A stretch of 64,000 nucleotides of DNA from Microlunatus flavus. Lineage in GTDB: Bacteria > Actinomycetota > Actinomycetes > Propionibacteriales > Propionibacteriaceae. Shown piece by piece: positions 8,213-45,568 of this stretch. The notes beneath the pieces were generated by a model. The model had not been told where the DNA came from. It made no database searches and worked only from the letters and a program-made list of their open reading frames with translations. Every line of letters starts with the position of its first letter. Within the stretch, counting starts at the first letter, position 1. The DNA lies in the NCBI RefSeq assembly GCF_900110855.1, contig NZ_FOFA01000004.1:186001-250000 (forward strand). Direction: 5' to 3'. The position numbers were made by a program, and so were the translations under genes.

Positions 8213-8304
8213 AGGCGTCCTCAGGAATCTGGCCGGACCCCTGGACAGACGAGCCCCGAGGCGCAAAGATGTTGCGCCGCTGAGGCGACCTCACGCAGGA
8301 ACTA

Positions 8305-8315
8305 TTGTCTGACAG
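8305..8315. promoter_or_regulatory. Operator-like site upstream of liv (one mismatch to TTGTCTGACAA)
   Basis: TTGTCTGACAG matches 10 of 11 bases of the palindrome present at 24955 and 40753. The TTGT-N3-ACAA form fits FCD-family GntR operators. A second GACAA half-site follows at 8318-8322. It is about 290 nt upstream of livK, so it might instead act on another transcript. Confidence 0.4.
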
Positions 8316-8355
8316 CCGACAAATGCATCTTCACGCGTTCCAACGTCATAACAAA

Positions 8356-8385
8356 CGGTAACAACGTGGTCATTTTCGGTAACAA
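8356..8385 (+). promoter_or_regulatory. Two CGGTAACAA direct repeats in the liv promoter region
   Basis: CGGTAACAA occurs at 8356-8364 and 8377-8385, 21 bp apart (two helical turns), with a weaker copy TCATAACAA at 8346-8354. This stretch is strikingly AT-rich for the window. A possible -10 (TATAAC, 8392-8397) follows at once, so a regulator bound here would sit next to RNA polymerase. The gap 8213-8597 otherwise holds only the palindrome at 8305 and the hairpin at 8486. Confidence 0.45.
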
Positions 8386-8485
8386 GTCGGATATAACCCT
8401 CCGTAAGGCTGCGGCAGCGCACCATGTCCGTCGACCCCCGGGTCGGCGGGCCCGGTCACTGCCGGGACGCCGTCCGGAACCCCCT

Positions 8486-21584: not shown

Positions 21585-22669
21585 GAGCGGCCTCCCTGCG
21601 CGGCCGCGACCAGCCGGGCCGCGAGCGGCGACGGCGGGGCCGCGCCCCAGGTGTCGGCGAGGGCGTAGCCCTGCGGGAACGGGTCGGTCGGGTCGACCCC
21701 GACCTGGCAGAGCTGGGTGATCCACGCCTGCCCGGCGACGCTGGGGACGACCGCGGGGACGCCGCCGACGGTGGTGAGCGACTCGATCCGGCTGTCGAAC
21801 CGCGAGCCGATGATCGAGGTGTGGACGAAGTCCTCGCCGACCTCGACGAGGCCGCGGGCGTGCATGACGGCGAGCCGCGCGGAGGTGCCGGTGCCGCAGG
21901 GCGAGCGGTCGAGGCGCCCGGGGCTGACGACGACGGCGTTCGCGGCCGTCAGCACGCCGTCCGGCGTCCGCGAGAGCGGGCCGGTCCACTCGAAGTTCGT
22001 GATGCCCGGGAACTCGGGATGCTCGGGGTGCACGGCGCTCAGCTGCTCGGCCGCGGCGAGCTTGATCACCTCACCGACCACGCAGAGGTCGCGCCCCTCG
22101 TCCGGCGTGATGCCGAAGCCGAGCGTCGCCGCGTCGACGAGCACGTACGCCATCCCGCCCCAGGCCACGTCGACGGCGACGGTGCCGAGCCCGGCGACCT
22201 CGACGGGCGCGTCGAGGTGGTAGGTCAGCGCCGGCTGGTTGGTGAACCGGACGGAGGTGACCTTGCCGTCGGCGCAGGTGCACTCCACCCGGATGAGCCC
22301 GGCCGCCGACTCCAGGGTGAGGTGGGTGACCGGCTCGACCATGGGGAGCATCCCGGTCTCGAGCAGCGCGGTGGTCACGCAGATCGTGTTGCTGCCCGAC
22401 ATCACCGGGTACTCCGTCGACTCCGCGATCACGTAGCCGAGCTGCGCCTCGGGGTGGCGCGACGGCAGGACGAAGTCGGCGCTGTTGATCACGTTCCCGC
22501 GCGGCTCCTGCAGCAGCCGGAGCCGCAGCTCGTCGCGGTGCTCGGTGAGGTACGCCCGCTTGTCGAAGATCGTCTCGCCGGGGACGTCGCCGATCCCGCC
22601 GGTGACCACGCGGGCGTTCTCGCCCCCGCAGTGCACGTCGACCACGTTCAGCACCTGGCTCCAGCGCAT
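21581..22669 (-). CDS. Proline racemase-family enzyme (Ser/Cys type, hydroxyproline epimerase or dehydratase)
   Basis: A 362-aa member of the proline racemase/4-hydroxyproline epimerase/trans-3-hydroxyproline dehydratase family. The first active-site position is Ser (VMSGSNTICV) where classical racemases have Cys (MCGH-like), and the second is Cys (DRSPCGTGTSARL). Ser/Cys members have been linked to 3-hydroxyproline dehydration and weak 4-hydroxyproline epimerisation, not proline racemisation. ATG 22669 has GAGAGG upstream; a longer in-frame start at 22771 runs into the divergent MFS promoter. It is the first gene of a two-gene unit with the amine oxidase. The divergent MFS/ornithine-cyclodeaminase pair supplies a possible transporter and a pyrroline-carboxylate reductase. 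Confidence 0.88.
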   Translation of the reverse strand: MRWSQVLNVVDVHCGGENARVVTGGIGDVPGETIFDKRAYLTEHRDELRLRLLQEPRGNVINSADFVLPSRHPEAQLGYVIAESTEYPVMSGSNTICVTTALLETGMLPMVEPVTHLTLESAAGLIRVECTCADGKVTSVRFTNQPALTYHLDAPVEVAGLGTVAVDVAWGGMAYVLVDAATLGFGITPDEGRDLCVVGEVIKLAAAEQLSAVHPEHPEFPGITNFEWTGPLSRTPDGVLTAANAVVVSPGRLDRSPCGTGTSARLAVMHARGLVEVGEDFVHTSIIGSRFDSRIESLTTVGGVPAVVPSVAGQAWITQLCQVGVDPTDPFPQGYALADTWGAAPPSPLAARLVAAAQGGRS

Positions 22670-22773
22670 CGCGACCTCTCCGCCGACCTCACGGCCGTGC
22701 CGTGTCCGTCCCGGGTCCGTCTCGCCCCCCGAGGCTCCGGACGCTACCGCGACGGTTCGGCCAGACTGCACCG

Positions 22774-23994
22774 GTGACCACGGCCGCTCCCCCCACCGCC
22801 CGCGGCCTGTCGACCCTCGTGCTGGGCCTCAGCCTGCTCGTCGTCGCGGCGAACCTGCGTCCCACCCTCACCGCGCTCGGCCCGGTGCTCGGACTCGTCG
22901 CGCAGGACACCGGCCTCAGCCCGTCGACGCTCGGCCTGCTGGGCTCGGTGCCTCTGCTGGCCTTCGCCGGGGTGTCGCCGTTCGTGCAGCTGCTCAGCCG
23001 CCGGTGGGGGCCCGACCACACGGTCTTCGCCGCGACGACGGTGATGCTGCTCGCGACGGTGGTGCGCTCGCTGCCGGGCCAGACGGTGACGCTGTGGGCG
23101 GGCACCATCGCGCTCGGTGCCGGCATCGCCGTGTGCAACGTGCTCGTCCCGGCCCTGGTCAAGCGCGACTTCCCGCGCGAGGTCCCCCTGATGACCGGCG
23201 CGTACACCGCGACGCTGAGCCTGTCCGCCGCCCTGGCGTCGGGCCTGGCCCTGCCCATCGGCGAGCGCGGCGGCTGGCGCGTCGGCATCGCGGTCTGGGG
23301 CGTGGTCGGGGTGCTGGCGCTGCTCGCCTGGCTGCCCCGGCTCCGGCGCCACGAGCGCGACGTGCCCGTCCCCGTCGCCGTGGTCCTGCCGAGGCCGGGC
23401 GAGGGCCGGACGGGCCGGGGCCGCTCGATGTGGCGCTCCCCGCTGGCCTGGCAGGTGACCGCCTTCATGGGGACGCAGGCGATCTTCTTCTACCTGCTCG
23501 TCACCTGGCTCCCGAGCATCGAGGTGGCCCGCGGCGTCGGCCCGGTGGCGGCGGGCTGGCACCTGTTCCTGTTCCAGGCGACGGGCATCGCCGGCGGCCT
23601 GCTCGTCTCGCTGGCCATGCGCGGGCGCCGCGACCACCGCCTCGCCGGCGTGGGCGTCAGCCTCGGGATGGCGATCTCGATGACCGGCCTGCTGCTGCTA
23701 CCGGCGCTCGACCTGGGGTGGCTGGTCGTCGGCGGCCTGAGCAGCGGGGCGTCGCTCGTGGTGGCGCTCTCGCTGGTCGCCGAGCGCAGCCGCACCACGG
23801 CCGACGCCGCCCGGCTCTCCGGCATGGTGCAGAGCATCGGCTACCTGCTCGGGATCATCGGCCCGATCGGCGCCGGCGCGCTGTTCCAGGCGACCGGGAC
23901 GTGGAGCGCGGTGCTGGTCGGCGTGGTGGTCGTCAACCTCGTCCAGCTCCTGGTGTCGCTGCTCGCGGGCCGCGACGCGTACGTGGAAGTCTGA
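22774..23994 (+). CDS. MFS transporter, CynX/NimT type
   Basis: A 406-aa carrier with about 12 transmembrane helices. The opening LSLLVVAANLRPTLTALGPVLGLVAQDTGLS (about residues 15-46) is the typical CynX/NimT/YeaN start, with the NLRP motif in helix 1. A central basic loop (RRHERDVPVPVAVVLPRPGEGRTGRGRS) separates the two halves. The substrate is probably an organic or amino acid anion; divergent transcription from the racemase-family gene points to an imino acid. GTG 22774 follows CAGACT by 6 nt (leaderless); a longer in-frame start at 22702 would overlap the divergent promoter. The next gene starts 5 nt after its stop. Confidence 0.88.
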   Translation: MTTAAPPTARGLSTLVLGLSLLVVAANLRPTLTALGPVLGLVAQDTGLSPSTLGLLGSVPLLAFAGVSPFVQLLSRRWGPDHTVFAATTVMLLATVVRSLPGQTVTLWAGTIALGAGIAVCNVLVPALVKRDFPREVPLMTGAYTATLSLSAALASGLALPIGERGGWRVGIAVWGVVGVLALLAWLPRLRRHERDVPVPVAVVLPRPGEGRTGRGRSMWRSPLAWQVTAFMGTQAIFFYLLVTWLPSIEVARGVGPVAAGWHLFLFQATGIAGGLLVSLAMRGRRDHRLAGVGVSLGMAISMTGLLLLPALDLGWLVVGGLSSGASLVVALSLVAERSRTTADAARLSGMVQSIGYLLGIIGPIGAGALFQATGTWSAVLVGVVVVNLVQLLVSLLAGRDAYVEV

Positions 23995-23999
23995 GCCGC

Positions 24000-24935
24000 G
24001 TGACCCTTCCCCACCTCGACGAGGCGGCCGTCCTGGCGCTCGGCCCGGCGGCCGCGGCGGACGCCCTGGAGCAGGCGCTGCGCGACGGGCTCGACCCGGC
24101 GAAGGGCGTGCCGCGCTCGTTCGTCGACGTGCCCGCGGGCGAGCTGATCATCATGCCGGCGGCCGGTGCGCGCCACGTCGGCACCAAGCTCGTCGGCGTC
24201 GCGCCCCGCAACGCCGAGCGCGGGCTGCCGCGCATCGGCGCGGTCTACGTCCTCTTCGACGCGACGACGATGCAGCCGGTCGCGACCCTCGACGGCACCG
24301 CGCTGACCACGCTGCGCACGCCGGCCACGAGCGTCGTGGCGCTGCGGCCGTGGCTGCGCGCCCAGGACTCCCCCCGTGACGTCGTCGTCTTCGGCGCGGG
24401 ACCGCAGGGCGTCGGGCACGTCGACGCGCTGGCCGCGGAGGTGCCGCTCGGCACGGTGACGTTCGTGGTCCGGCGCCCGGACGCGGTGACGCTCCCGACG
24501 ACCGGCCCCGCGGCCGCAGCCGGGCTGCTCGCCTCCGACGACCCGCGCGTCGCCGAGGCGCTCGGCACGGCCGACGTCGTGGTGTGCGCGACGACGGCCC
24601 GGACGCCGGTGTTCGACCCCGGCCTCCTCGGCGCCGATCGCCCGGTGCTCGTCGCCGCGGTCGGGTCGCACGAGCCCGAGGCCGCCGAGGTCGACATCGC
24701 GTACACCCGCTCGGCGACGGTCGTCGTCGAGGACGTGGCGACGGCGCTGCGCGAGTGCGGCGACGTCGTCCAGGCCGTCGACGTCGGCGCGGTCTTCGAG
24801 CGCGACCTGGTGCCGCTCGCCGCGGTCGCGCGAGGCGAGGCGCCCGTCGGCAGCGGCCGGGTGCTGTTCAAGGGCAGCGGCATGGCCTGGCAGGACCTCG
24901 TCGTGGCCGAGGCGGTCCTGGACGCGTACCGCTGA
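24000..24935 (+). CDS. Ornithine cyclodeaminase/mu-crystallin-family enzyme (possible pyrroline-2-carboxylate reductase)
   Basis: A 311-aa NAD(P)-binding protein. VVVFGAGPQGVGHVDALA (about residues 125-142) is the Rossmann GxGxxG, followed by FVVRRP at the end of the second strand. The N-terminal substrate half contains RSFVDVPAGELIIMPA and GTKLVGVAPRNAERGLPRIGAVYVLFD, with the Lys-x-Val/Arg pattern of the family. Members are ornithine cyclodeaminase, alanine dehydrogenase or delta1-pyrroline-2-carboxylate reductase. Next to a Ser/Cys racemase-family dehydratase the last is the best guess: trans-3-hydroxyproline to pyrroline-2-carboxylate to L-proline. GTG 24000 begins 5 nt after the MFS stop. 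Confidence 0.8.
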   Translation: MTLPHLDEAAVLALGPAAAADALEQALRDGLDPAKGVPRSFVDVPAGELIIMPAAGARHVGTKLVGVAPRNAERGLPRIGAVYVLFDATTMQPVATLDGTALTTLRTPATSVVALRPWLRAQDSPRDVVVFGAGPQGVGHVDALAAEVPLGTVTFVVRRPDAVTLPTTGPAAAAGLLASDDPRVAEALGTADVVVCATTARTPVFDPGLLGADRPVLVAAVGSHEPEAAEVDIAYTRSATVVVEDVATALRECGDVVQAVDVGAVFERDLVPLAAVARGEAPVGSGRVLFKGSGMAWQDLVVAEAVLDAYR

Positions 24936-24954
24936 CGCGTTGCCCGCCTGCTGA

Positions 24955-24965
24955 TTGTCTGACAA
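24955..24965. promoter_or_regulatory. GntR-type operator before the aminotransferase
   Basis: The perfect 11-bp palindrome TTGTCTGACAA lies about 55-65 nt upstream of the predicted transcription start at 25021. It is identical to the core of the site overlapping the promoter of the 39988-40731 GntR gene, so that regulator probably controls this aminotransferase as well. Confidence 0.6.
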
Positions 24966-25007
24966 CCTTGGTCCGAGCCCGCACGCATCCGCGTCGGTCC
25001 CGAGGTC

Positions 25008-25013
25008 GAGAAT
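25008..25013 (+). promoter_or_regulatory. -10 element for leaderless aminotransferase mRNA
   Basis: GAGAAT ends 7 nt before ATG 25021. No Shine-Dalgarno is present. It supports 25021 over the in-frame ATG at 25012. Confidence 0.45.
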
Positions 25014-25020
25014 GGACGAC

Positions 25021-26457
25021 ATGAGCCTGACGAGCACCGCGAACGAGACCCTGGTCGAGCACGCCGACGCGGCGGCCACCGACGCGCAGCAGCCCGACGG
25101 CCAGCAGCCGACCGGCCCGCAGGACGCCGGGCCCGCCACCGGCGCGCAGGCCGACGGCCGCTCCAACGCCGAGGTCGGCGCCGACGACGCCTCGGTCGTC
25201 TTCCACTCGTGGTCCAAGCAGGGCGGGCTCAAGCCCCTCCCCCTGGCCGGCGGCCAGGGCACGACCGTCTGGGACCACGACGGCAACCGCTACCTCGACT
25301 TCTCCACCCAGCTCGTGTTCACGAACATGGGCCACCAGCACCCCAAGATCATCGCCGGGATCACCGAGCAGCTGGGCACGCTCGCGACCGTCGCCCCCGC
25401 GCACGGGAACGCCACCCGGGCCGAGGCCGCCCGGCTGATCCTGCAGCGCGCGCCCGAGGGCTTCGAGAAGGTCTTCTTCACCAACGGCGGCGCCGACGCC
25501 AACGAGAACGCCATCCGCATGGCGCGCCTCGTGACCGGCCGCACCAAGGTGCTGTCGCGCTACCGCTCGTACCACGGCAACACCGGCGCGGCGATCGTTG
25601 CGACGGGCGACTGGCGCCGCATCCCCAACGAGCACGCCACCGGCCACGTGCACTTCTTCGGCCCCTACCTCTACCGCAGCGAGTTCTGGGCCTCCACGCC
25701 CGAGGAGGAGTGCGCCCGCGCGCTGCACCACCTCGAGCGCACCGTGCAGGCGGAGGGGCCGGAGAGCATCGCGGCGATCCTGCTCGAGTCCGTGCCCGGC
25801 ACCGCCGGGATCATGGTGCCCCCGCCCGGCTACCTGTCGGGCGTCCGCGCGATCTGCGACCGCTACGACATCAAGCTGATCCTCGACGAGGTGATGGCGG
25901 GCTTCGGGCGTACGGGTGAGTGGTTCGCGTTCGACGCTCACGACGTCCGCCCCGACCTGATCACCTTCGCCAAGGGCGTCAACTCCGGCTACGTCCCGGT
26001 CGGCGGCGTGATCATCTCCTCCGACATCGCCCACGCCTTCGACGACCGGGTCTTCCCGGGCGGCCTCACCTACTCCGGCCACCCGCTCGCCGCGGCGAGC
26101 ATCGTCGCGACCCAGCGGGCGATGGCCGAGGAGGGCGCGGTCGAGAACGCGAGGCGCATCGGCGCCGACGTGCTCGGCCCGGCCCTGGTCGAGCTCGGCG
26201 CCAAGCACGACGTCATCGGCGAGGTCCGCGGCACCGGCGTGTTCTGGGCGCTGGAGCTCGTCGCCGACCCGGAGACCCGCGAGCCGCTCCCGACGCCGAC
26301 GGTCGCCGCCCTCAAGTCCGACCTCATCAGCCGCGGCCTGCTGCCCTTCGCCACGGACAACCGCATCCACGTCGTCCCGCCGATCAACGTCACCGACGAC
26401 GAGGTCGCCCGCGCCCTCGCGATCTACGACGAGGCCTTCACGGCCTTCCGCCCCTGA
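25021..26457 (+). CDS. Class III PLP-dependent aminotransferase
   Basis: A 478-aa fold-type I transaminase. The PLP-phosphate loop is FTNGGADANENAIRMAR, the PLP-stacking Tyr is in RYRSYHGNTG, the pyridine-N Asp is in LILDEVMAGFGRTG, and the Schiff-base Lys is in LITFAKGVNSGYVPVGG. Its substrate should be an amino acid or diamine with a terminal or alpha amino group (omega-amino acid:pyruvate type). The first 60 residues are a low-complexity Ala/Gln/Gly extension before the catalytic domain. It stands alone between the OCD-family gene and the old-yellow-enzyme gene. The upstream TTGTCTGACAA ties it to the hydroxyproline operon regulator. It might serve 2-aminoadipate in the lysine/pipecolate branch, which lacks a transaminase of its own here; that is inference. 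Confidence 0.9.
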   Translation: MSLTSTANETLVEHADAAATDAQQPDGQQPTGPQDAGPATGAQADGRSNAEVGADDASVVFHSWSKQGGLKPLPLAGGQGTTVWDHDGNRYLDFSTQLVFTNMGHQHPKIIAGITEQLGTLATVAPAHGNATRAEAARLILQRAPEGFEKVFFTNGGADANENAIRMARLVTGRTKVLSRYRSYHGNTGAAIVATGDWRRIPNEHATGHVHFFGPYLYRSEFWASTPEEECARALHHLERTVQAEGPESIAAILLESVPGTAGIMVPPPGYLSGVRAICDRYDIKLILDEVMAGFGRTGEWFAFDAHDVRPDLITFAKGVNSGYVPVGGVIISSDIAHAFDDRVFPGGLTYSGHPLAAASIVATQRAMAEEGAVENARRIGADVLGPALVELGAKHDVIGEVRGTGVFWALELVADPETREPLPTPTVAALKSDLISRGLLPFATDNRIHVVPPINVTDDEVARALAIYDEAFTAFRP

Positions 26458-28663: not shown

Positions 28664-28722
28664 GTCGGACCTTCCGGACGCGGCGGGCGCGCGGTCGATC
28701 GGCGCGGCACGCCGAACTCTAG

Positions 28723-28734
28723 ATGTGATCACAT
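28723..28734. promoter_or_regulatory. Operator in the oye/gntR divergent promoter
   Basis: The perfect 12-bp palindrome ATGTGATCACAT sits 36 nt before the GntR ATG (over its -35 zone) and 60 nt before the oxidoreductase start. This is a classic position for a GntR protein repressing both genes. Confidence 0.65.
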
Positions 28735-28756
28735 ATCAGAAGCAAGCCTCTCGGAG

Positions 28757-28769: not shown

Positions 28770-29459
28770 ATGACCGCCCTGGCGCCGCTCGGCGAGCCCT
28801 CGCTGCTCACGGACCGCGTCTACGGAGCGATCCGCGAGGCGATCCGCAGCGGCGAGATCGGCGCCGGCGAGCGGCTGCGCCTGCGTGACCTGGCCACCAA
28901 GCTGGGCACCAGCCCGATGCCGGTGCGCGAGGCCATCGGCCGCCTGGAGCAGAACGGCCTCGTGGTCCGCGTCCCCCACCGCGGTGCCGTGGTCGCGGAC
29001 CTCACCCCGGCGGAGCTGAGCCACGTCTACACGACCCGGCTGCTGCTCGAGGTCGAGGCGACCCGCCTGGGCTGCGCGGGTGTGACCGCCACCGACGTGC
29101 GGAGGATGCGGGCGGCGTACGACGGCATGCGCGCGGCGGTCGGTGCCGGTCGCGTCGGCGAGGCCCTGGACCGCGACGAGGAGCTGCTCACCGTCCTCTA
29201 CGCGGCCGGCGGCAACCCCGTCCTGCTCGGCCTGGTGCAGGACCTGTGGCAGCGCTGCCGCGCGTTCAAGCTGCTCGGCGCGGACGGGGCCGGCTCGGCC
29301 GGGCCCGACGAGGGCGCGTGGGCGACGCAGCGGCGGCTGCTGGAGGCTGTCGAGTCCAGCGACGCGGAGGCCGCCGTGGCGGTCACCCGCGAGTCGCTCG
29401 AGTCGGCGCAGCAGCGGATCCGAGCCCTGCTCGACGAGGGCGCCCCCTCCGCCGGCTGA
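28770..29459 (+). CDS. GntR-family regulator, FCD type
   Basis: A 229-aa transcription factor. The N-terminal winged helix (residues 12-78) contains LTDRVYGAIREAIRSGEIGAGERLRLRDLATKLGTSPMPVREAIGRLEQNGLV, a textbook GntR HTH. The C-terminal all-helical FCD domain (about 85-220) carries the ligand or metal site. The start at ATG 28770 lies 7 nt after TACGCT (leaderless). It is divergent from the old-yellow-enzyme gene and separated from it by a palindrome, so it likely senses that enzyme's substrate and represses both. The 222-nt gap to the next gene holds only weak inverted repeats, for example GTTAC-N8-GTAAC at 29566-29583. Confidence 0.88.
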   Translation: MTALAPLGEPSLLTDRVYGAIREAIRSGEIGAGERLRLRDLATKLGTSPMPVREAIGRLEQNGLVVRVPHRGAVVADLTPAELSHVYTTRLLLEVEATRLGCAGVTATDVRRMRAAYDGMRAAVGAGRVGEALDRDEELLTVLYAAGGNPVLLGLVQDLWQRCRAFKLLGADGAGSAGPDEGAWATQRRLLEAVESSDAEAAVAVTRESLESAQQRIRALLDEGAPSAG

Positions 29460-33597: not shown

Positions 33598-34380
33598 TCA
33601 GGCCACTGCTTGCGCGCCGGTGATCTCGACGGCGGCACCGCAGAGGTAGGGCGCCTCGTCCGAGGCGAGGAACGCGACGAGCGCGGCGACCTCCTCGGGG
33701 TACCCGACGCGACCGTACGGGACCAGCGCGTCGAGGTCGGCCTTGGTCCGGCCGGTGCGGGCGAGGTTCGCCGCGACCATCGGGGTGAAGATCTCGCCGG
33801 GGCAGACCGCGTTGACCCGGACCCCGGCGGGCGCGTAGTCCCGCGCGAGGCTCTGCGTCAGCGACACGACCGCCGCCTTGGAGGCGTTGTAGGCGACGTG
33901 GCCCGGCGCCGGGTGCAGGCCCCACTGCGACGCCGTGTTGACGACCGCCCCCTGCCCCGCGGCGACCATGACCGGCAGCGCGGCCCGGCAAAGGTGCGCA
34001 ACGGCGTCGACGTTCACCGCGAAGGTCAGGTCCCAGTCCTCGGGGGCGAGGTCGAGCAGGGCGCCGCGCCGGTTGACCCCGGCGTTGTTCACCAGCACGT
34101 CGAGGCGGTCGTGGTCGTTCACGACGTCGTCCACGGCGGACGCGCAGGCGCCGGGGTCGGTGACGTCGAAGACGCGCGGGACAGCGCGGCCGCCGGCGAG
34201 CACGACGTCCTCGACCACACGACCGACGGCGACCGGGTCGAGGTCGGCGACCTGGACGACCGCCCCCTCCGCGGCCAGCCGGTGGGCGATCGCCGACCCG
34301 ATGCCGCCCGAGGCACCGGTGACCAGGCAGACCCGGTCGACGAAGCGTCGCGCCGAGGACGGCTGCGGGTCCTTGATCAC
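33598..34380 (-). CDS. Short-chain dehydrogenase/reductase
   Basis: A 260-aa classical SDR, with TGASGGIGSAIAHRL at residue 17 onward, NNAGVNRRGAL, Ser in VVNTASQWG and the pair YNASK. Asp-Leu-Asp after the second strand (VQVADLDPVAV) favours NAD(H). GTG 34380 overlaps the aldehyde dehydrogenase stop by 4 nt (GTGA), so it is coupled to that gene. The next SDR starts 41 nt downstream. Two SDRs at the end of a hydroxyproline-type operon exceed the textbook four-enzyme route and hint at an extra substrate or a side pathway. Confidence 0.88.
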   Translation of the reverse strand: MIKDPQPSSARRFVDRVCLVTGASGGIGSAIAHRLAAEGAVVQVADLDPVAVGRVVEDVVLAGGRAVPRVFDVTDPGACASAVDDVVNDHDRLDVLVNNAGVNRRGALLDLAPEDWDLTFAVNVDAVAHLCRAALPVMVAAGQGAVVNTASQWGLHPAPGHVAYNASKAAVVSLTQSLARDYAPAGVRVNAVCPGEIFTPMVAANLARTGRTKADLDALVPYGRVGYPEEVAALVAFLASDEAPYLCGAAVEITGAQAVA

Positions 34381-35867
34381 GACGCCTGGCCCTCCGGCAG
34401 GGTGAAGATCGTCCGGTGCCACGGCTTGGCCGCGACCCCGGTGAGGTCGAACATCACGTGCTTGACCACCGTGTAGTCCTCGAAGGAGTAGGTCGACATG
34501 TCCTTGCCGAAGCCCGACTCCTTCATCCCGCCGTGCGGCATCTCGCTGATGATCGGGATGTGGTCGTTGACCCACACGCAGCCCGCGCGGATCTCCCGGG
34601 TGGCGCGCAGCGCGCGGTAGAGGTCGCGGGTCCAGGCCGAGGCGGCGAGCCCGTACGGGGTGTCGTTGGCCAGCGTGATCGCCTCGTCGTCGGTGTCGAA
34701 GGGCAGCACGACGAGCACGGGCCCGAAGATCTCGTCGCGCACGACCTCGGTGGTCTTGCCGGCGTCGGTGATCAGGGTCGGCGCGTAGTACGAGCCCCGC
34801 GCCAGCGCGCCGCCCGGGGCCTGGCCTCCGGTGACGACCTTCGCGTACGCGCGAGAGCGGTCGACCAGCGCCCCGATCCGGTCGCGGTGGGCGGTGCTGA
34901 TCACCGGGCCGAGGTCGGTGGCGGGGTCGTCGGTCGGGCCCAGCCGCACGGCCGCGAACAGGTCGGCGACGCCGGAGACGAAGGCGTCGTGGAGCGAGCG
35001 GTGGACGATAGCCCGGGTCGCGGCGGTGCAGTCCTGGCCGGAGTTGATCAGGCTCGCGGCGACGACGCCCTGGATCGCGGCGTCGAGGTCGGCGTCGTCG
35101 AACACGACGAACGGGGCCTTGCCCCCGAGCTCGAGGTGGACGCGCTTGGCGTTGGTCGCGGCGGCCTCGAGCACGGTGCGGCCGACCTTGGTCGAGCCGG
35201 TGAAGGAGACCATGTCGACGTCGCGGTGGCGCAGCAGCGGGGCGCCGGCGTCGACGCCGGTCCCGGTGAGGACGTTGAAGACCCCGTCGGGGAGGCCGGC
35301 CTGCGTGGCCAGCTCGGCGAACCGCAGCGTGGTCAGCGGCGTCAGCTCCGACGGCTTCAGCACGATGGTGTTGCCGGCGGCGACCGCCGGCAGGACCTTC
35401 CAGGCGGCCATCTGCAGCGGGTAGTTCCAGGGCGCGATCGAGCCGACGACGCCCACGGGTTCGCGGCGGATCGAGCTCGTGTGGTCGGCCGAGTACTCGG
35501 CGGTCGCCTGCCCCTCGAGGGTGCGGGCGGCACCGGCGAAGAACGCGGTGTTGTCGATCGTCCCGGGGACGTCGAACTCGCGCGCCAGCCGGATCGGCTT
35601 GCCCGCCTGCCGGCTCTCGGTCCGGGCGAGGTCCTCGGCCTCGGCCTCGAGCAGCCCGGCGAGCGTGTGCAGCACCGCCGACCGCTCCCCCGGCGTCGCG
35701 CCGGACCAGGCCGGGAAGGCCGCCCGGGCCGCGGCGACCGCGGCGTCGACGTCGTCGGCGCCCGCGAGGCTGATCTCGGCCACCATCTCGCCGGTCGAGG
35801 GGTCGCGGACCACGTCGCTGGTTCCGGTCAGCGCCTCCCGGCGCTTCCCACCGATGTACTGGCTCAC
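34377..35867 (-). CDS. Aldehyde dehydrogenase (gamma-aminobutyraldehyde or 2-oxoglutarate semialdehyde type)
   Basis: A 496-aa NAD(P)+-dependent dehydrogenase. The catalytic Glu is in RVHLELGGKAP, the nucleophile Cys in NSGQDCTAATR, the cofactor segment is SFTGSTKVG and the oxyanion Asn is in IAPWNYPLQM. N-[SA]-GQ-DCTA is typical of the gamma-aminobutyraldehyde branch (PatD/PuuC-like). In its operon, beside an epimerase, an oxidase and a DapA-family deaminase, the expected job is oxidation of 2-oxoglutarate semialdehyde to 2-oxoglutarate. ATG 35867 starts the C-terminal part of the operon after a 180-nt gap that contains the inverted repeats at 35907-36027. Confidence 0.9.
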   Translation of the reverse strand: MSQYIGGKRREALTGTSDVVRDPSTGEMVAEISLAGADDVDAAVAAARAAFPAWSGATPGERSAVLHTLAGLLEAEAEDLARTESRQAGKPIRLAREFDVPGTIDNTAFFAGAARTLEGQATAEYSADHTSSIRREPVGVVGSIAPWNYPLQMAAWKVLPAVAAGNTIVLKPSELTPLTTLRFAELATQAGLPDGVFNVLTGTGVDAGAPLLRHRDVDMVSFTGSTKVGRTVLEAAATNAKRVHLELGGKAPFVVFDDADLDAAIQGVVAASLINSGQDCTAATRAIVHRSLHDAFVSGVADLFAAVRLGPTDDPATDLGPVISTAHRDRIGALVDRSRAYAKVVTGGQAPGGALARGSYYAPTLITDAGKTTEVVRDEIFGPVLVVLPFDTDDEAITLANDTPYGLAASAWTRDLYRALRATREIRAGCVWVNDHIPIISEMPHGGMKESGFGKDMSTYSFEDYTVVKHVMFDLTGVAAKPWHRTIFTLPEGQAS

Positions 35868-36045: not shown

Positions 36046-37107
36046 TCACAACCCCGGCGCCCAGATGTCGCCGACGCTGAAGCCGGCGGGAAAGGGGTCG
36101 GTGTCGTCGAGGACCCACGTCGAGCGGCCGGTGATCCAGCCGCTGCCGGTGATCGTCGGGAGGACCGCGTCGTACGCGCCGAGGGTCGTCGTCCCCGTCA
36201 GCTCGCCGACGAACTCGGTGCCGATGACGCTGCGGTGGCTGAACTTCTCGCCGACCGCCAGCTCGCCGCGGGCGTGCAGGGCCGCCATCCGCCCGCAGGT
36301 GCCGGTGCCGCAGGGCGAGCGGTCGAGCGCGCCGGTCCACGTGCTGGGGTCGTCCGCGCGCAGCGGACCCTGGGTGAGGACGACCGCGTTGCGGTCCTGC
36401 ACGCCGGGCTGCCGGTCGCCGGAGTGCAGCATGATGTTGCCGACCGCGTTGATGTCGGGGTTCAGCGGGTGCCGGACGTCGAGCTGCTCGAGGGCGGCGA
36501 GCTTGAGCAGGGCACCCGCCCGCGTGAGCTCGCGGCCGCGGTCCGGGTGGATCTCGAGGCCGAGCGCCGCGGCGGGTGCCTGGACGAAGAAGCCGCCGCC
36601 GAACACGACGTCGACCGCGACCGTCCCGAAGGTGGGCACCTCGAGCGGGACGTCGAGCCCGACGACGAACGCCGGCACGTTGGCGACGGTGACGCTGCGC
36701 ACCTTGCCGCCGGAGACACCCGCCTCGGCCTCGATGGGGCCCACGGCGGTGTCGATGCGGACCCGGGTGACCGGCTCGACCATCGGCACGAGGCCGCTCT
36801 CCAGGACCGCGGTGACGGTGCAGATGGTGTTGCTGCCCGACATCGCCGTGAACCCGCCCTGCTCGAGCACGATGATCCCGAGGTCGGAGCCCGGCTCGAC
36901 GGGCGGCAGCACGAAGACCGCGCAGAGGCCCGGGAACCCTCGCGGCTCCCGCAGCAGGAAGCGCCGTACGTGGTCGAGGTGGTCACGGCAGTAGGCGAAC
37001 CGCTCGGCCATGGTCTCGCCGTGCACGAGGCCGGCTGCGTTGATCACGACCCGTCCGGCCTCGCCCTCGGCGTGGGCCTCGATCGTCTGGAGCTCGAGCC
37101 GGGGCAT
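36046..37107 (-). CDS. Proline racemase-family enzyme (predicted hydroxyproline 2-epimerase)
   Basis: A 353-aa paralogue of the 21581-22669 protein. The active-site positions are Ser in AMSGSNTICTV and Cys in DRSPCGTGTCGRM, with the His-bearing segment VINAAGLVHGETMAER between them in the fold. Next to an FAD oxidase, a DapA-family enzyme and an aldehyde dehydrogenase the natural reaction is trans-4-hydroxy-L-proline to cis-4-hydroxy-D-proline. The Ser/Cys pair, not Cys/Cys, warns that trans-3-hydroxyproline dehydration is an alternative. ATG 37107 begins 1 nt after the dapA-family stop, so translation is coupled. The two racemase paralogues have clearly diverged. Confidence 0.88.
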   Translation of the reverse strand: MPRLELQTIEAHAEGEAGRVVINAAGLVHGETMAERFAYCRDHLDHVRRFLLREPRGFPGLCAVFVLPPVEPGSDLGIIVLEQGGFTAMSGSNTICTVTAVLESGLVPMVEPVTRVRIDTAVGPIEAEAGVSGGKVRSVTVANVPAFVVGLDVPLEVPTFGTVAVDVVFGGGFFVQAPAAALGLEIHPDRGRELTRAGALLKLAALEQLDVRHPLNPDINAVGNIMLHSGDRQPGVQDRNAVVLTQGPLRADDPSTWTGALDRSPCGTGTCGRMAALHARGELAVGEKFSHRSVIGTEFVGELTGTTTLGAYDAVLPTITGSGWITGRSTWVLDDTDPFPAGFSVGDIWAPGL

Positions 37108-37108
37108 C

Positions 37109-38014
37109 TCAGGCCTGCGCCGCGACGAAGGGCTCGAGGACGGCGGCCAGCCCGGCGCGCTGCTCGGCCGAGAGCGGCTGCACCGGGGCCCGCGTGGGAC
37201 CGGCCGGGTGGCCGAGGACCTCGAGGGCAGCCTTGACGCCCGCGACGTAGTTCACCGACTCCAGGTAGGAGCTCAGCGCCCACAGGTCGCGCCACTGCTC
37301 GCGCGCCGCGCCCAGGTCGCCCTTCACGGCCAAGGTGTCCCACAGCGCCACGGCCTGCTCGGGCACGAGCCCCGCGACGCCCCACACCGACGCCTCGGCG
37401 CCGAGCGCGAGGCCCGCGAACGTGAGGGTGTCCCAGCCGTTGAACGCCTTGATCCGCGACCCGCGGCTGACGATCAGGTCGGTCAGGGCGACGGCGTCAC
37501 CCGAGGTGTCCTTGAGGTAGTCGACGCCCTCGATGTCGCCCAGCTCGGCCACCTGGGCGGCGTCGAGCCGGATCCCGGTGGCGCCCGGGACGTTGTAGTA
37601 CATGATCGGCAGGCTCGTCGCCGCGGCGACGTCGGCCAGGAACACCTTGAGGGTCGCGAGGTCGAGCGGGTCGTAGAAGGGCGGGACGAGCATGACCGCG
37701 TCCGCGCCCACCTGCTCGGCGTGCTGCACGAGGCTGATGGCTCCCGCGGTCGTCAGCGAACCGACGCCCGCCACGACGGGCACCCGCCCCGCCGCGGCGG
37801 AGACGTACAGCTCGACGACGCGGCGGTGCTCCTCGGGGCTGAGGCTCGTGAACTCGCCGGTCGTGCCGCACGGGACGAGGCCGTGGACGCCGGCGCCGAC
37901 GAGACGGTCGACGAGCGCGACGAGCGCGTCCTCGTCGACGGCCGAGCCGTCGGCGCTGAACGGGGTGGGGACGGCGGCGAGGATGCCGGTCAGGTGGACC
38001 TGCTTGCGGGGCAC
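37109..38014 (-). CDS. DapA/NAL-family lyase (predicted pyrroline-hydroxycarboxylate deaminase)
   Basis: A 301-aa class I aldolase-type TIM barrel. LVPCGTTGEFTSLSPEEH carries the carboxylate-binding GTTGE loop, MYYNVPGATG the proton-relay Tyr, and VDYLKDTSGD the Schiff-base Lys (about residue 168). Biosynthetic DapA is an unlikely assignment because the gene sits in a catabolic operon between an FAD oxidase and a racemase-family gene. Delta1-pyrroline-4-hydroxy-2-carboxylate deaminase, which gives 2-oxoglutarate semialdehyde, fits the context. ATG 38014; the stop is 1 nt before the epimerase start. Confidence 0.88.
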   Translation of the reverse strand: MPRKQVHLTGILAAVPTPFSADGSAVDEDALVALVDRLVGAGVHGLVPCGTTGEFTSLSPEEHRRVVELYVSAAAGRVPVVAGVGSLTTAGAISLVQHAEQVGADAVMLVPPFYDPLDLATLKVFLADVAAATSLPIMYYNVPGATGIRLDAAQVAELGDIEGVDYLKDTSGDAVALTDLIVSRGSRIKAFNGWDTLTFAGLALGAEASVWGVAGLVPEQAVALWDTLAVKGDLGAAREQWRDLWALSSYLESVNYVAGVKAALEVLGHPAGPTRAPVQPLSAEQRAGLAAVLEPFVAAQA

Positions 38015-38073: not shown

Positions 38074-39378
38074 TCAGGCGGAGACGAGGCTCCGCGTCGG
38101 CGTCCTGCGGACGAGCGCTCGGGTGAAGCGCTGGGGCGCGAAGGGCACGAGCACGTCGGGCGTCTCGCCGGTCAGCACGAGCCGGCTGAGCGCGAGGGCC
38201 GAGCCCGGGCCGAGGGTGACGCCCTGCATGCCGTGCCCGCTCGAGACGTACGTGTTGGCGAGGTCGCCGAGGCGGCCGATCACGGGGATGCCGTCCGGGG
38301 TCATGGGGCGGATGCCCGCCCTCGGCGTCACCGGCCCGGCGGGCGGGGTCCAGTCCCGGAAGTACGCGGACGGGGCGCGCAGGATGGCGCCGATGCGCAC
38401 CTGGTTGAGCTCCTCGTCCAGCCCGGCGAACTCCATCGTCCCGGCGAGGCGCAGGTTGCGGGTCAGGGGCGTGACCGCGACCTTCGCGTCGGAGAGGTTG
38501 ACCGAGCTGCGCAGGTCGAACGGCTCGACGTCGATGCTGTAGCCCTTGCCGGGGCGCACGGGCAGCGGGACGCCGAGGAGCCGCGAGATGGGCCCGGTCC
38601 AGGCGCCGGCCGCGAGCACGAAGGCGTCGGCGCCGACGCGCTCCTGCCCCGCCACGATGGTGCGCAGCCCCTCGCCGCCGGGCACAGCCCCGTGCTCCGC
38701 CCCGTTGATCGGCGCGCCCTCGAGGATCGTCACGCCGAGCTCCACCAGGCGGCGGTGGAGCGCACGCATCAGGGCGGGCGGGTCGAGGTGGTCCTCGCGC
38801 GGCAGGTAGATGGCGCCGTGCACGCGGTCGGAGAGCTGCGGCTCCTGCGCGCGGGCGTCGTCGCCGAGGAGGACCTGCGGTTCACGGTCGTAGCGCCGGG
38901 CGAGGTCGAGCAGGCCGCGGTGGTGCTCGAGGTTCTCCTCCTCGAGGAAGGCCATCAGCAGGCCGTCGTGGCGCAGCTCGAAGTCCAGTCCGTCCGAGCG
39001 GTAGCGGTCGTACGCCTCCCCGCTGCTCTGGGCCAGCCGCAGGTGGGCCTCGAAGCCGGCCTGCTGCGCGGGCCCGTTGCAGGCGCGCCACATGCCGAGC
39101 ATGAACTTGACGAACTGCGGGTCCAGCGAGGGGCGGATGTAGAGCGGGCTGTCTCGGCGCAGCATCCACCTCCGGGAGGTGCTGATCATCCCGGGCCCGG
39201 GCACCGGCGCGGACTCGGCCGGGCAGACCCACCCGGCGTTGACCTCGGCGGCGCCGCGGCCGGTCTGGCGGGCGTCGACGAGCGTCACCCGGGCCCCGTC
39301 GACGGCGAGCTGGTAGGCGGTGGTGAGCCCGATGACCCCGCCGCCGATCACGACGACGTGCGTCCCGGTGCCCGCCAC
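38074..39378 (-). CDS. FAD-dependent D-amino acid dehydrogenase-like oxidoreductase (DadA type)
   Basis: A 434-aa DAO-family flavoprotein. VVVIGGGVIGLTTAYQLAVDGARVTLVDAR (residues 7-36) binds FAD, GRGAAEVNAGWVCPAES is the DadA-type second motif, and GIRPMTPDGIPVIGRLGDLANTYVSSGHGMQGVTLGPGS the C-terminal FAD-binding end. In this operon it should oxidise cis-4-hydroxy-D-proline to a pyrroline-4-hydroxy-2-carboxylate, passing electrons to the respiratory chain or O2. GTG 39378 starts 1 nt after the SDR-like gene's stop. The dapA-family gene follows after 59 nt. Confidence 0.88.
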   Translation of the reverse strand: MAGTGTHVVVIGGGVIGLTTAYQLAVDGARVTLVDARQTGRGAAEVNAGWVCPAESAPVPGPGMISTSRRWMLRRDSPLYIRPSLDPQFVKFMLGMWRACNGPAQQAGFEAHLRLAQSSGEAYDRYRSDGLDFELRHDGLLMAFLEEENLEHHRGLLDLARRYDREPQVLLGDDARAQEPQLSDRVHGAIYLPREDHLDPPALMRALHRRLVELGVTILEGAPINGAEHGAVPGGEGLRTIVAGQERVGADAFVLAAGAWTGPISRLLGVPLPVRPGKGYSIDVEPFDLRSSVNLSDAKVAVTPLTRNLRLAGTMEFAGLDEELNQVRIGAILRAPSAYFRDWTPPAGPVTPRAGIRPMTPDGIPVIGRLGDLANTYVSSGHGMQGVTLGPGSALALSRLVLTGETPDVLVPFAPQRFTRALVRRTPTRSLVSA

Positions 39379-39379
39379 G

Positions 39380-39991
39380 TCAGCGCCCGTCCAGCGCGTG
39401 GACCTGGCCGGTCTGCACCCCGTGGACGGCCTTGACGAACGCCTGGCCGACCTCGGCCGCGCTCACCTGGGCGAAGCCGGGGAAGAACGGGTGGTAGCCG
39501 GTGGCCTCCACGAGGACGGTCGGGCTCACGGCGTTGATGCGCAGCCCGCGCGGCAGCTCGGCCGCGGCGCTGACGACGAACGACTCGACCGCGCCGTTGG
39601 CGAGGGCGGCGGCGGCGCCGGTCCGGATGGGTTCGCGGGCGAGGACGCCGGTGGTGAGCGTGATCGACCCGGCGTCGACGAGGTGGGGCGTCGCGAGCCG
39701 GGTGACGTCGACCTGGCTGGCGACCTTGCCGCGGTAGGCCGCGAGGTAGTCCTCCGCGCCCAGGTCGGCGAGCGGCTTGAACGGCACGGAGCCGACCGCG
39801 CAGACCACCGCGTCGAGCGGGCCGTCGGTGGTGACCCGGTCGAGCAGCGCGGCGACCGAGGAGGCGTCGAGCACGTCGACCGCCAAGGCGGAGCTCTGCG
39901 AGGCCCTCAGCACCTCGTCGCCGTACGCCTCCAGCGCGTCGGCCGCGGCGCCGCCGACCAGGCCGGTGGCGCCGATCACGAGCGTTCTCAT
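39380..39991 (-). CDS. SDR-like Rossmann protein lacking the catalytic Tyr
   Basis: A 203-aa short Rossmann-fold protein. LVIGATGLVGGAAADALEAYG is the cofactor loop, and the tail half (ITLTTGVLAREPIRTGAAAALANGAVESFVVSAAAELPRGLRINAVSPTVLVEA) aligns with the SDR helix and PG-loop region. The YxxxK pair is absent: RTGAAAALANG occupies that place. The NNAG motif is also altered (VVCAVGSVPF). Either catalysis uses other residues or the protein is a sensor or helper. ATG 39991 overlaps the GntR stop by 4 nt, so it is made together with the regulator. It is about 40-50 residues shorter than active SDRs. Confidence 0.8.
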   Translation of the reverse strand: MRTLVIGATGLVGGAAADALEAYGDEVLRASQSSALAVDVLDASSVAALLDRVTTDGPLDAVVCAVGSVPFKPLADLGAEDYLAAYRGKVASQVDVTRLATPHLVDAGSITLTTGVLAREPIRTGAAAALANGAVESFVVSAAAELPRGLRINAVSPTVLVEATGYHPFFPGFAQVSAAEVGQAFVKAVHGVQTGQVHALDGR

Positions 39992-40731
39992 GCGATGGTC
40001 CTCTCGTCGTGCCCCGAGCCTGAGGCCCCGTCCGCGTCGTCCGGCGGGCGGCGCAGGGCGATCAGCTCGTCGGCGCTGGTGATGCTGTGCTCGCGGAACG
40101 TCTGCTCGACGCGGGCCTCGTCGCCGCTCTCCAGGGCGTCGACGAGCGCACGGTGCAGCCGGTGCGCACGGTCGGGGTCGTGACGCACCGCCTGGTCCTG
40201 CGCGAGCGCGATGGTGAGGTGCGCGGAGATGACGGGCCAGAGCTGGTCGAGCACGACGTTCTCGGCGGCGGACCACACGGCGCGGTGGAACGCGAGGTGC
40301 CCCTCGTGGCGGGCGACGGGGTCGGCGTCGAAGGCCGAGGTCTCGAAGTCGCTCCAGGCCCTGCGGACCGCGGCGAGCCGGGCACCGCTGGTGTCGGCGA
40401 GGATGTCGCGCGCCGCGAGCACGTCGAGGGCCGCGCGGGTCCGGGCGAGGTCGCGCAGCGCGGCCCCGTCGAGGTCGGCGACCCGCAGGCCCCGGTAGGG
40501 CTCGGAGACGACCAGGCCCTCGCGGGCGAGCTGACCCAGCGCCTCCCGCACGGTGGCGCGGCTGACCTGCAGGTCGGCGGCGAGCGCCAGCTCGGTGAGC
40601 TTGTCCCCCGGCCGCAGCGCGCCGGCGACGATGCCGCGGCGGATCTGCGCGAGCACGGCCTCGCGCCGGGAGACCGACGCGACGGGTGCGAGCGGGCGTC
40701 GCTCTCCGCCGGCGGCGCCCAACGTGATCAT
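39988..40731 (-). CDS. GntR-family regulator of the hydroxyproline operon, FCD type
   Basis: A 247-aa regulator. The winged helix (about residues 23-88) has SRREAVLAQIRRGIVAGALRPGDKLTELALAADLQVSRATVREALGQLAREGLV. The FCD domain follows (about 95-230) with GHLAFHRAVWSAAEN, where the FH segment belongs to the metal/ligand pocket. ATG 40731 is set by TAGCGT lying 7 nt upstream (leaderless) and by homology beginning there; a longer in-frame start would swallow the palindrome. A perfect 15-bp palindrome (40751-40765) overlaps its own promoter, so it should be autoregulated. It heads the eight-gene operon down to 32792. Confidence 0.9.
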   Translation of the reverse strand: MITLGAAGGERRPLAPVASVSRREAVLAQIRRGIVAGALRPGDKLTELALAADLQVSRATVREALGQLAREGLVVSEPYRGLRVADLDGAALRDLARTRAALDVLAARDILADTSGARLAAVRRAWSDFETSAFDADPVARHEGHLAFHRAVWSAAENVVLDQLWPVISAHLTIALAQDQAVRHDPDRAHRLHRALVDALESGDEARVEQTFREHSITSADELIALRRPPDDADGASGSGHDERTIA

Positions 40732-40738
40732 GGCCCGC

Positions 40739-40765
40739 ACGCTAGCAGTCGATTGTCTGACAATC
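40739..40765 (-). promoter_or_regulatory. gntR promoter with autoregulatory palindrome
   Basis: The perfect palindrome GATTGTCTGACAATC (40751-40765) lies 7 nt upstream of the -10 TAGCGT (40744-40739), which is itself 7 nt before ATG 40731. Bound GntR would cover the -35 region. The core TTGTCTGACAA recurs at 24955 and, with one mismatch, at 8305. Confidence 0.7.
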
Positions 40766-40899
40766 AACGGACTGCTCGTCGACGTGCCCTGTCGGTGCGG
40801 TCGAGGCCTCACCGCTCGCCCGAGTCCTCGGTTGGCGCCCGTCGTAGCGTGGGCGGACGGAGCGGATGGCGGACGGGCCTTCCGACCGGAGAGGCTCGG

Positions 40900-42468
40900 A
40901 TGCGGGACGGCGACACGGACCTCGCCGGCACGTCGCGGTCGAGCGGACCGACGGCGCCTGCGGGCTCCGCGACGACCGACGAGCTGGACCCCCGACGCTG
41001 GCGGGCCCTGTTCGTCATGCTCATGGGCCAGTTCTGCGCCCTGCTCGACGTGAGCGTGACCAACGTCGCCCTGCCGTCGATCGGACGCTCGACCGGCGCC
41101 GGGCCGACGGAGCTGCAGTGGGTGGTGAGCGGCTACATCCTCGCCTTCGGGCTGATGCCCGTGATCGGCGGCCGGCTGGGCGACGCGACCGGGCGGAGGC
41201 GGATGTTCGTCGTCGGGGTGTCCGGCTTCGTCGTCGCCAGCGCGGCGGCCGGGCTGGCGCCCTCACCGGGGGCGCTGATCGCGGTGCGGGTCGTGCAGGG
41301 CCTGTTCGGCGGAGTGATCGGCCCGCAGGTGTCCGGCTTCATCCAGAACACGTTCCCGCGGGCCGAACGCGGGCGGGCGTTCGGGCGGCTGGGCCTCACC
41401 GTCGGCGTGGGCACCGCCCTGGGACCGGTCGTCGGCGGGCTGCTCATCGCCGCGGGCGGGCCCGAGTACGGGTGGCGGCTGGTGTTCTTCATCAACGTGC
41501 CGATCGGTCTGGTCGCCGTGCTGCTGGCCCGCGCGTGGGTGCCGGTCGTCCGCCCCCGCGCCGCCTCGAGCAGCCGGCTCGACCTCCTCGGGGCGCTGCT
41601 CCTGGGCACGGGTCTGCTCTGCGTGCTCTTCCCGATCGTCGAGATCAACCAGCTGCACGACGTCCGGCTGTTCCTGCTGCTCGTCCCGGCCGCGGGCCTC
41701 CTGCTGATGTTCGTGCGGCGCGAGGCGCACCTCACCCGCGCGGACGCCGGGCCGCTGCTGGACCTGCGGCTGTTCCGGGTCCCGACCTTCGTCACCGGCG
41801 TGGTCTTCGCGGTGGTGTTCTTCTGCAGCAACACCGGGATCCCGCTGGTGCTGTCCCTCTACTACCAGGACGGGCTCGGGTTCACCGCTCTGCACTCCGG
41901 GCTCGGGGTGACCGCCCTCGCCCTCGGGTCCGTCCTCGGCGCCCCGCTCGCCGGCCGGCTGGTGCAGCGGGTCGGTCGTCCGCTCGTCGTCGGGGCCGTC
42001 CTCGTCTTCTTCCTCGCCACCACGGTGATCGGCGTCGTCCTCCTGCTGGACCCGGTGGTGACCCCGCTCCAGGTCGGCCTGCGGCTCGCGCTGCCGCTCT
42101 TCGCGCTCGGCATCGCCGGCGGGTCGATCGTCACGCCCAACCAGACCCTCACCCTCGCCGAGGTCGACCCCGTCCGCGGAGGAGCCGCCGGCGGGGTCCT
42201 GCAGACCGCTCAGCGGGTCGGTTCGGCCACCGGGCAGACCGTGCTCGGCACCGTCTTCGTCGCGGCGCTCGGCGCCGGTGCCGCAGCGGGGACCGCCGGT
42301 CGGCCCGGGCCGTACACGGGGGCCGTCACCTCGGCCCTCGCGGTGTCCCTGGTGTTCTCCGGCGCGGCGCTCGTGCTGAGCGTGGTCGAGCTCCGTCGCG
42401 CGAGACGGCGGGCCGCGGTCAGGGCGCACGAGGACGGGCGTCAGGTCCCGGACCCCTCGGCGCCCTAG
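40900..42468 (+). CDS. DHA2-family (EmrB/QacA) MFS exporter
   Basis: A 522-aa, 14-helix proton-driven drug exporter. Helix 1 contains MLMGQFCALLDVSVTNVALPSIG (the D-x-T-x-V-N-V-A-L-P motif of DHA2 pumps), motif A is GGRLGDATGRRR, and motif C is GLTVGVGTALGPVVGGLL. The last 30 residues are a basic cytoplasmic tail. ATG 40900 has GGAGAGG 6 nt upstream. It is divergent from the gntR/hydroxyproline operon with a 168-nt gap, but no palindrome faces it apart from the gntR operator. Its substrate is unknown. The stop codon is reused as the -10 of the next gene. Confidence 0.9.
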   Translation: MRDGDTDLAGTSRSSGPTAPAGSATTDELDPRRWRALFVMLMGQFCALLDVSVTNVALPSIGRSTGAGPTELQWVVSGYILAFGLMPVIGGRLGDATGRRRMFVVGVSGFVVASAAAGLAPSPGALIAVRVVQGLFGGVIGPQVSGFIQNTFPRAERGRAFGRLGLTVGVGTALGPVVGGLLIAAGGPEYGWRLVFFINVPIGLVAVLLARAWVPVVRPRAASSSRLDLLGALLLGTGLLCVLFPIVEINQLHDVRLFLLLVPAAGLLLMFVRREAHLTRADAGPLLDLRLFRVPTFVTGVVFAVVFFCSNTGIPLVLSLYYQDGLGFTALHSGLGVTALALGSVLGAPLAGRLVQRVGRPLVVGAVLVFFLATTVIGVVLLLDPVVTPLQVGLRLALPLFALGIAGGSIVTPNQTLTLAEVDPVRGGAAGGVLQTAQRVGSATGQTVLGTVFVAALGAGAAAGTAGRPGPYTGAVTSALAVSLVFSGAALVLSVVELRRARRRAAVRAHEDGRQVPDPSAP

Positions 42469-44235: not shown

Positions 44236-44323
44236 GCTCGCAGTCTCGTACAGGAACGCTCAACGGTGCGTCGAGCAGGTGTCGATTGTGCTGAACGAAG
44301 GACCACGAGACGATGGAAGCGAG

Positions 44324-45535: not shown

Positions 45536-45568
45536 CGGTCCCCATCATCTGACGAAGGAGCTCCGACC

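Follow-up and report, generated by a model that had tools for sequence, protein, structure and literature searches.

The window, as we call the whole stretch of 64,000 nucleotides analysed here, has a G+C content of 73% and carries a gene for a GntR-type regulator followed by genes of families associated with hydroxyproline breakdown (Table 1). Domain matches above the cut-off (PF00392, 60.8 bits; PF07729, 57.5 bits) placed the 247-aa regulator in the FadR (FCD) subfamily. Residues 145-149 of its FCD domain read HLAFH; the first position is His in the regulator and in six aligned orthologues, and Asp in 10 and His in 2 of the 13 FCD paralogues of the same genome (counted by eye), Asp at this position being a probable metal ligand in FCD proteins. 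Members of the epimerase, oxidoreductase, deaminase and aldehyde dehydrogenase families lie beside gntR, which is the gene neighbourhood of a HypR-type regulator if the activities are as the families suggest; these four make up the usual set for trans-4-hydroxyproline breakdown (PMC5343134). The aldehyde dehydrogenase gene, on the same strand as gntR, is separated from the proline racemase family gene by a gap of about 180 bp, and the NCBIfam subfamily that it matched above cut-off is NF010000, named aminobutyraldehyde dehydrogenase. Gene order in the operon is identical in two relatives, the sister genome G074 and G097. The divergent MFS transporter gene, which may also be under the gntR operator, lies beside gntR in G074 and was not found within 7 kb beyond the operator in G097. 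Farther along the window, at 44180-48642, consecutive genes encode a DAO-family oxidoreductase, an HglS-type 2-oxoadipate dioxygenase/decarboxylase and an L-piperidine-6-carboxylate dehydrogenase, a probable pipecolate/lysine breakdown cluster next to the hydroxyproline operon; relatives of all three are also found near that operon in the genome G041.

Table 1. Genes and candidate regulatory elements in the window, with the basis of each assignment.
Feature	Position	Strand	Basis
Trans-3-hydroxy-L-proline dehydratase-like protein (T3HypD-like), proline racemase family	21581..22669	-	NF047722 398.6 bits, below cut-off 550; start chosen
MFS transporter, CynX/NimT-like	22702..23994	+	273 bits, below model cut-off 406; longest ORF, start provisional
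Ornithine cyclodeaminase/mu-crystallin family, possible pyrroline-2-carboxylate reductase	24000..24935	+	Profile match, scanned from 23991; putative role
Second operator copy GATTGTCTGACAACC	24953..24967		Candidate; exact core, identical in G074
Class III aminotransferase, NF004718 family	25012..26457	+	Closest solved structure 6jix
Conserved element AGATGTGATCACATATCAGA, candidate gntR2 operator	28721..28740		Own/G074/G097 alignment; one base differs in G097
gntR2, second FCD-family GntR in the window	28770..29459	+	PF07729 match G000:C13:215025-215402; ATG start chosen
Motif copy TATTGTCTGACAGCC upstream of livK, the third; rejected as part of the system	8303..8317		Site not kept in G074 or G097
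Aldehyde dehydrogenase, possible alpha-ketoglutarate semialdehyde dehydrogenase	34377..35867	-	Putative role
Proline racemase family, probable 4-hydroxyproline epimerase	36046..37107	-	Six NCBIfam matches, none reaching its cut-off
DHDPS-family protein, probable pyrroline-4-hydroxy-2-carboxylate deaminase	37109..38014	-	Family match; putative role
DAO-family FAD oxidoreductase, probable D-hydroxyproline dehydrogenase	38074..39378	-	Family match; role suggested by the operon
Short-chain dehydrogenase family protein, operon gene 2	39380..39991	-	Family match
GntR, FCD family, 247 aa, proposed repressor	39988..40731	-	Pfam GntR E 1e-16, FCD E 2.4e-15
Predicted gntR promoter	40739..40767	-	Read off own/G074/G097 alignment
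Operator of the hydroxyproline-operon GntR, GATTGTCTGACAATC	40751..40765		Candidate; sequence and conservation
MFS transporter, divergent from gntR	40900..42468	+	Family match

The 15-mer GATTGTCTGACAATC is a perfect odd palindrome, with 7-nt arms around a central T, and it lies where the original prediction had placed a palindrome overlapping the gntR promoter, amid presumptive -35 and -10 boxes. As read off the alignment of our genome with G074 and G097, the boxes in the window would be TTGATT (40767-40762) and TAGCGT (40744-40739), with most of the operator in the 17-nt spacer between them. Across the three genomes the spacer is 17 nt (18 in G074), the -10 box reads TAGCGT or TAGCCT, and an in-frame gntR ATG follows 6 to 7 nt past it. 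Because the ATG is only 7 nt past the presumptive -10 box in the window, the gntR mRNA probably has a very short leader or is leaderless. A strict sigma-70 promoter scan returned nothing at the gntR site or at the aminotransferase site, so the gntR boxes are to be taken as a reading of the alignment. A similar layout (TTGATG, 17 nt, TAGGCT) was seen in G077, which belongs to another genus and in which, however, the estimated gntR start is farther downstream, 65 bp from the core. Half-sites and spacing are those anticipated for an FCD-type GntR protein: the palindrome contains TTGT-CTG-ACAA, which agrees with the FadR-subfamily consensus TKGT/ACMA and with the 3 nt that usually separate GT from AC, as given in PMC4494728; binding of the palindrome by the protein is predicted.

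Exact copies of the core TTGTCTGACAA were found at two places in the 4.79-Mb genome, at 24955 and 40753 of the window, against 0 for the control. Chance frequency across the genome, which the original prediction had named as fatal to it, therefore does not apply to the exact motif. With up to one mismatch, the window gave 5 rows, corresponding to 3 places because two palindromic places are counted on both strands; shuffled windows (n = 100) gave a mean of 0.10 rows and none reached 5. The whole genome gave 12 rows at 9 places with the same tolerance, compared with 3 control rows. The loose form TTGTNNNACAA occurs at 5 places in the genome and its control at 10, so that, taken by itself, the loose form shows no enrichment and is in fact less frequent than the control. 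Across the genus (20 genomes), the exact core was found 11 times, in 8 genomes, and its control 4 times. The sites at gntR and at the aminotransferase in our genome (G000), G074 and G097 account for five of these matches; the remaining six lie elsewhere and are close in number to the control. Clustering at amino acid genes, which had been suggested as a check, was not seen. Outside the window the core occurs with one mismatch at six places: two lie at another FCD GntR gene near ABC transporter genes (C16:533.4-533.5 kb), a third precedes a TetR gene, a fourth is within an IS481-type transposase gene, a fifth coincides with the start of an ORF on contig C15 and the last is some 80 bp upstream of a PspA-type ORF.

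The palindrome at gntR is conserved in relatives. The 15-mer is identical in our genome, G074 and G097, and in the alignment of the three upstream regions the blocks GTTGATTGTCAGACAATC and CTGCTAGC are distinct from diverged flanks. A search of 391 genomes across the order recovered gntR orthologues (E values up to 1e-40) in 7 of them. A core with at most two mismatches lies within 300 bp upstream of six of the seven orthologues including our own (five of six without it), compared with 3 of 37 other FCD GntR genes; in this count, start codons of orthologues and controls were estimated from alignment ends, the upstream stretches were 400 bp for the 13 paralogues of our own genome and 300 bp for the other 24 controls, and the loci L040 (at a contig end) and L096-L108 were omitted. 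The six orthologues carry 0, 0, 0, 1, 1 and 2 mismatches, with one each in G041 and G077 and two in G086, whose site taken alone is weak (shuffle frequency 0.04). The most distant orthologue, in G177, had no site within 300 bp of gntR, the best match there having 4 mismatches.

A matrix was trained on 6 distinct sites. Four of them lie at gntR: that of the window, which G074 and G097 share unchanged, and those of G041, G077 and G086. The other two precede the DAO gene of G041 and the T3HypD-like gene of G086. The aminotransferase and livK sites were excluded from training. The training sites' own scores are not independent, because the matrix was built from them. In G041, the site before DAO scores 22.5 (training site) and a site before a pair of PNPOx and proline-racemase genes scores 19.9 (outside the training set). 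In G086, the best-scoring site (27.1, training site) precedes the T3HypD-like gene, whose product is 60% identical to the T3HypD-like protein of the window and 40% to the other racemase. Two weaker sites upstream of DAO in G086 (18.3 and 17.9, outside the training set) also fall inside the 5' part of an opposite zinc-dehydrogenase ORF, and the gntR site of G086 (L119:17422) scores 16.4 (training site). A further G086 match, GATTGTATGACAAAC at L119 8725-8739 (19.8, outside the training set), was seen about 360 bp before the ORF of an SNF-family symporter, which is possibly a hydroxyproline importer. Sites at the regulator's own promoter in six of seven orthologues and at pathway promoters in G041 and G086 together form the pattern of a HypR-type regulator. 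Judging from its sequence and conservation, the site at 40751 very probably serves the FCD-type GntR that heads the hydroxyproline operon as its autoregulatory operator. In the window itself, the three top-scoring places were gntR (29.0, training site), the aminotransferase site (26.2) and the livK site (21.4), the next place scoring 10.5. Neither 29.0 nor 26.2 was reached in 5 Mb of first-order Markov sequence, and 21.4 was reached once.

We compared the system with regulators described in the literature. The HypR protein of Streptomyces coelicolor (SCO6294) is also of the FadR/FCD subfamily, controls hydroxyproline genes (epimerase, deaminase) and has a site in its own promoter, which it autorepresses (PMC6608401). 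The two differ in the site, which is TACAATGTCAC or CTNTGC(A/C)ATGTCAC for the Streptomyces protein and the palindrome TTGTCTGACAA here, and in the putative D-hydroxyproline dehydrogenase, which is three-subunit there, unlike here; the main text of PMC6608401 contains no occurrence of the word 'aminotransferase'. By operator sequence, our regulator does not fit the S. coelicolor HypR type, the conserved site here being TTGTCTGACAA rather than one resembling TACAATGTCAC. With the proteobacterial HypR regulators it has in common the GntR type and the hydroxyproline core genes (PMC5343134, PMC4494728). Those regulons are autoregulated in 32 of 46 genomes, have hypE, hypO, hypD and hypH as their core, include ornithine cyclodeaminase in some cases, and show taxon-specific changes in their motifs (PMC5343134). 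The spacing between GT and AC is 2 nt in several FadR-subfamily groups, including the HypR orthologous group (PMC4494728), whereas it is 3 nt here (GT-CTG-AC). The identical TTGTCTGACAA is covered by a DNase I footprint in the promoter of lhgR in Pseudomonas putida W619; LhgR is likewise a GntR protein, but it regulates L-2-hydroxyglutarate breakdown and responds to L-2-hydroxyglutarate, and the likeness noted here is one of operator letters (PMC8206213). The same 11-mer also occurs in oligonucleotides of an alkB2 promoter from work on the LysR-family protein CrgA (PMC6422896), so its letters do not by themselves prove a GntR protein. Among the open-access papers listed by our searches, we recognised no report of this regulator and operator.

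The second exact copy of the core lies at 24955-24965, before the class III aminotransferase, as predicted; the 15-mer around it, GATTGTCTGACAACC, falls between the stop codon of the cyclodeaminase gene (24933-24935) and the aminotransferase ATG (25012). The description of this aminotransferase as a lone gene proved wrong: it is the last gene of a same-strand run in which CynX-type MFS and ornithine-cyclodeaminase-family genes precede it, and the run is divergent from the T3HypD-like gene. In the intergenic region between the T3HypD-like and MFS genes of the window, no site was found among the 15 top matrix places or in the alignment. The closest solved homologue of the aminotransferase is the taurine:2-oxoglutarate aminotransferase 6jix (375.6 bits, E 3e-111; the next scores 244.4).

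Whether this copy is functional is less certain than for gntR. It is unlikely, in our estimate, that only the gntR site works and that the aminotransferase copy is a chance match or a relic, shared with G074 by recent common descent. This reading draws on the distribution of the site, which was found at 2 of 22 aminotransferase loci (the window and G074) and at none of the other 20, one of the 22 (L068) being without upstream sequence and another (L063) having about 380 bp. G097 has no site within 2 mismatches upstream of its gene, whose first in-frame start is a GTG 57 bp past the cyclodeaminase stop, and in G041 no site precedes the aminotransferase gene, the site there following it and lying before gntR. 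In addition, the flanks of the G074 copy are fairly similar too. Against this reading, the score of the site was absent from the 5 Mb of Markov sequence, and in both the window and G074 the 15-mer sits in the small gap that separates the cyclodeaminase and aminotransferase genes (76 and 88 bp, respectively). The gene is also linked to the regulator. Of the 20 genomes of the genus, the 4 that have the regulator (at least 60% identity) are also those that have the aminotransferase (at least 73%), and in each the two genes lie at most 17 kb apart, about 125 bp in G041, although this co-occurrence is not independent evidence because the four genomes may be close kin. In a sample of the family, the regulator (at least 48%) was found in 5 and the aminotransferase (at least 55%) in 21 of 97 genomes, and G086 has the regulator without the aminotransferase. 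Taken together, the link is credible but confined to one lineage, and the aminotransferase site is plausibly a lineage-specific target of the hydroxyproline GntR.

The site could instead be owned by another FCD GntR protein of overlapping specificity, either gntR2 or a paralogue such as that at C16:533.8 kb, which we consider quite improbable. The genome has 14 FCD matches, and two paralogues suggest that another regulator could bind: the C16 protein has near-identical copies of the core, TTGTCTGACAC and TTGTGTGACAA, by its own start, and the paralogue at C13:60 kb shares the stretch VSRATVREA with our regulator. However, the 3.4-kb C13:60 kb locus yielded no match to the palindrome arms with one mismatch or fewer, and the C16 paralogue is on another contig beside ABC transporter genes. 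As for gntR2, the conserved element AGATGTGATCACATATCAGA between the OYE-family gene and gntR2 contains the palindrome TGTGATCACA (28724-28733), which is unlike TTGTCTGACAA, and AGATGTGATCACATATCAGA is probably the gntR2 operator; this difference in palindrome was the reason for rejecting gntR2 as the regulator to which the aminotransferase site belongs. The two C16 copies (L001 4897-4907 and 5047-5057; G000 C16:533396 and 533546) are 150 bp apart and one overlaps a probable GTG start; cross-talk with this regulator, or its being a sister regulator, is possible.

A core with one mismatch is present upstream of livK, at 8305-8315, as had been stated. The name livK itself rests on a match below the curated cut-off (84 versus 477 bits). 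The 15-mer of the window is TATTGTCTGACAGCC; the corresponding letters are TATCGTTCGACAGCC in G074 and TTTTGTCTGCCGACC in G097. That a single regulator serves all three loci, livK included, is very unlikely: only two places in the window score above the livK site, about 0.013 matches of that score are expected per 64 kb (from the one match in 5 Mb of Markov sequence), and G097 retains the half TTGTCTG, but the score falls from 21.4 in the window to 7.5 in G074 and 9.8 in G097 despite long conserved stretches in the neighbouring upstream sequence of all three genomes, and about one livK-grade match per genome is expected by chance. We therefore rejected livK as a target, the site being degraded in both relatives checked, and its motif copy is probably a coincidence. 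At 8260-8278 and 8345-8388 of the window, the livK upstream region also has a conserved inverted repeat, GGCGCAAAGATGTTGCGCC (G097 differs by one base), and two GTCAT...CGGTAACA elements adjoining a conserved TATAAC. As elements controlling livK, these would be stronger candidates than the TTGTCTGACAG site.

We consider it likely that TTGTCTGACAA is the operator of the hydroxyproline GntR, serving autorepression and, in this species and G074, control of the aminotransferase, with livK excluded; this is the best explanation of what we observed, namely where the sites lie, how they are conserved and how the genes are linked. A GntR dimer would bind the palindrome inside its own promoter and cover part of the presumptive -35 box and the spacer, so that gntR and the downstream hydroxyproline genes would be repressed until an intermediate of the hydroxyproline pathway released the protein. 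In this species and its sister G074, the second copy would place the class III aminotransferase under the same GntR. Of the proposal that one regulator joins three loci, the gntR part holds, the aminotransferase part holds with less certainty, on the identity of the G074 copy and the gene linkage, and the livK part does not.

The outcome is a well-supported, if ordinary, autoregulatory operator that has one additional target specific to a lineage, a three-locus regulon being reduced to two. Autoregulation by GntR proteins is common, and the finding is accordingly modest. The comparison with relatives was what separated two credible sites from one coincidence. A broader idea, which we hold to be doubtful, is that a single FCD-type GntR runs a joint regulon for trans-4- and trans-3-hydroxyproline into which a taurine-transaminase-like enzyme was recruited in one lineage; if true, nitrogen compounds typical of animal tissue would be switched on together. 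For hydroxyproline use in high-GC bacteria, of which Streptomyces offers a published example with a HypR protein that binds a different sequence, the analysis provides an operator and a regulon that can be tested, and it predicts that the transaminase of this cluster belongs with imino-acid breakdown.
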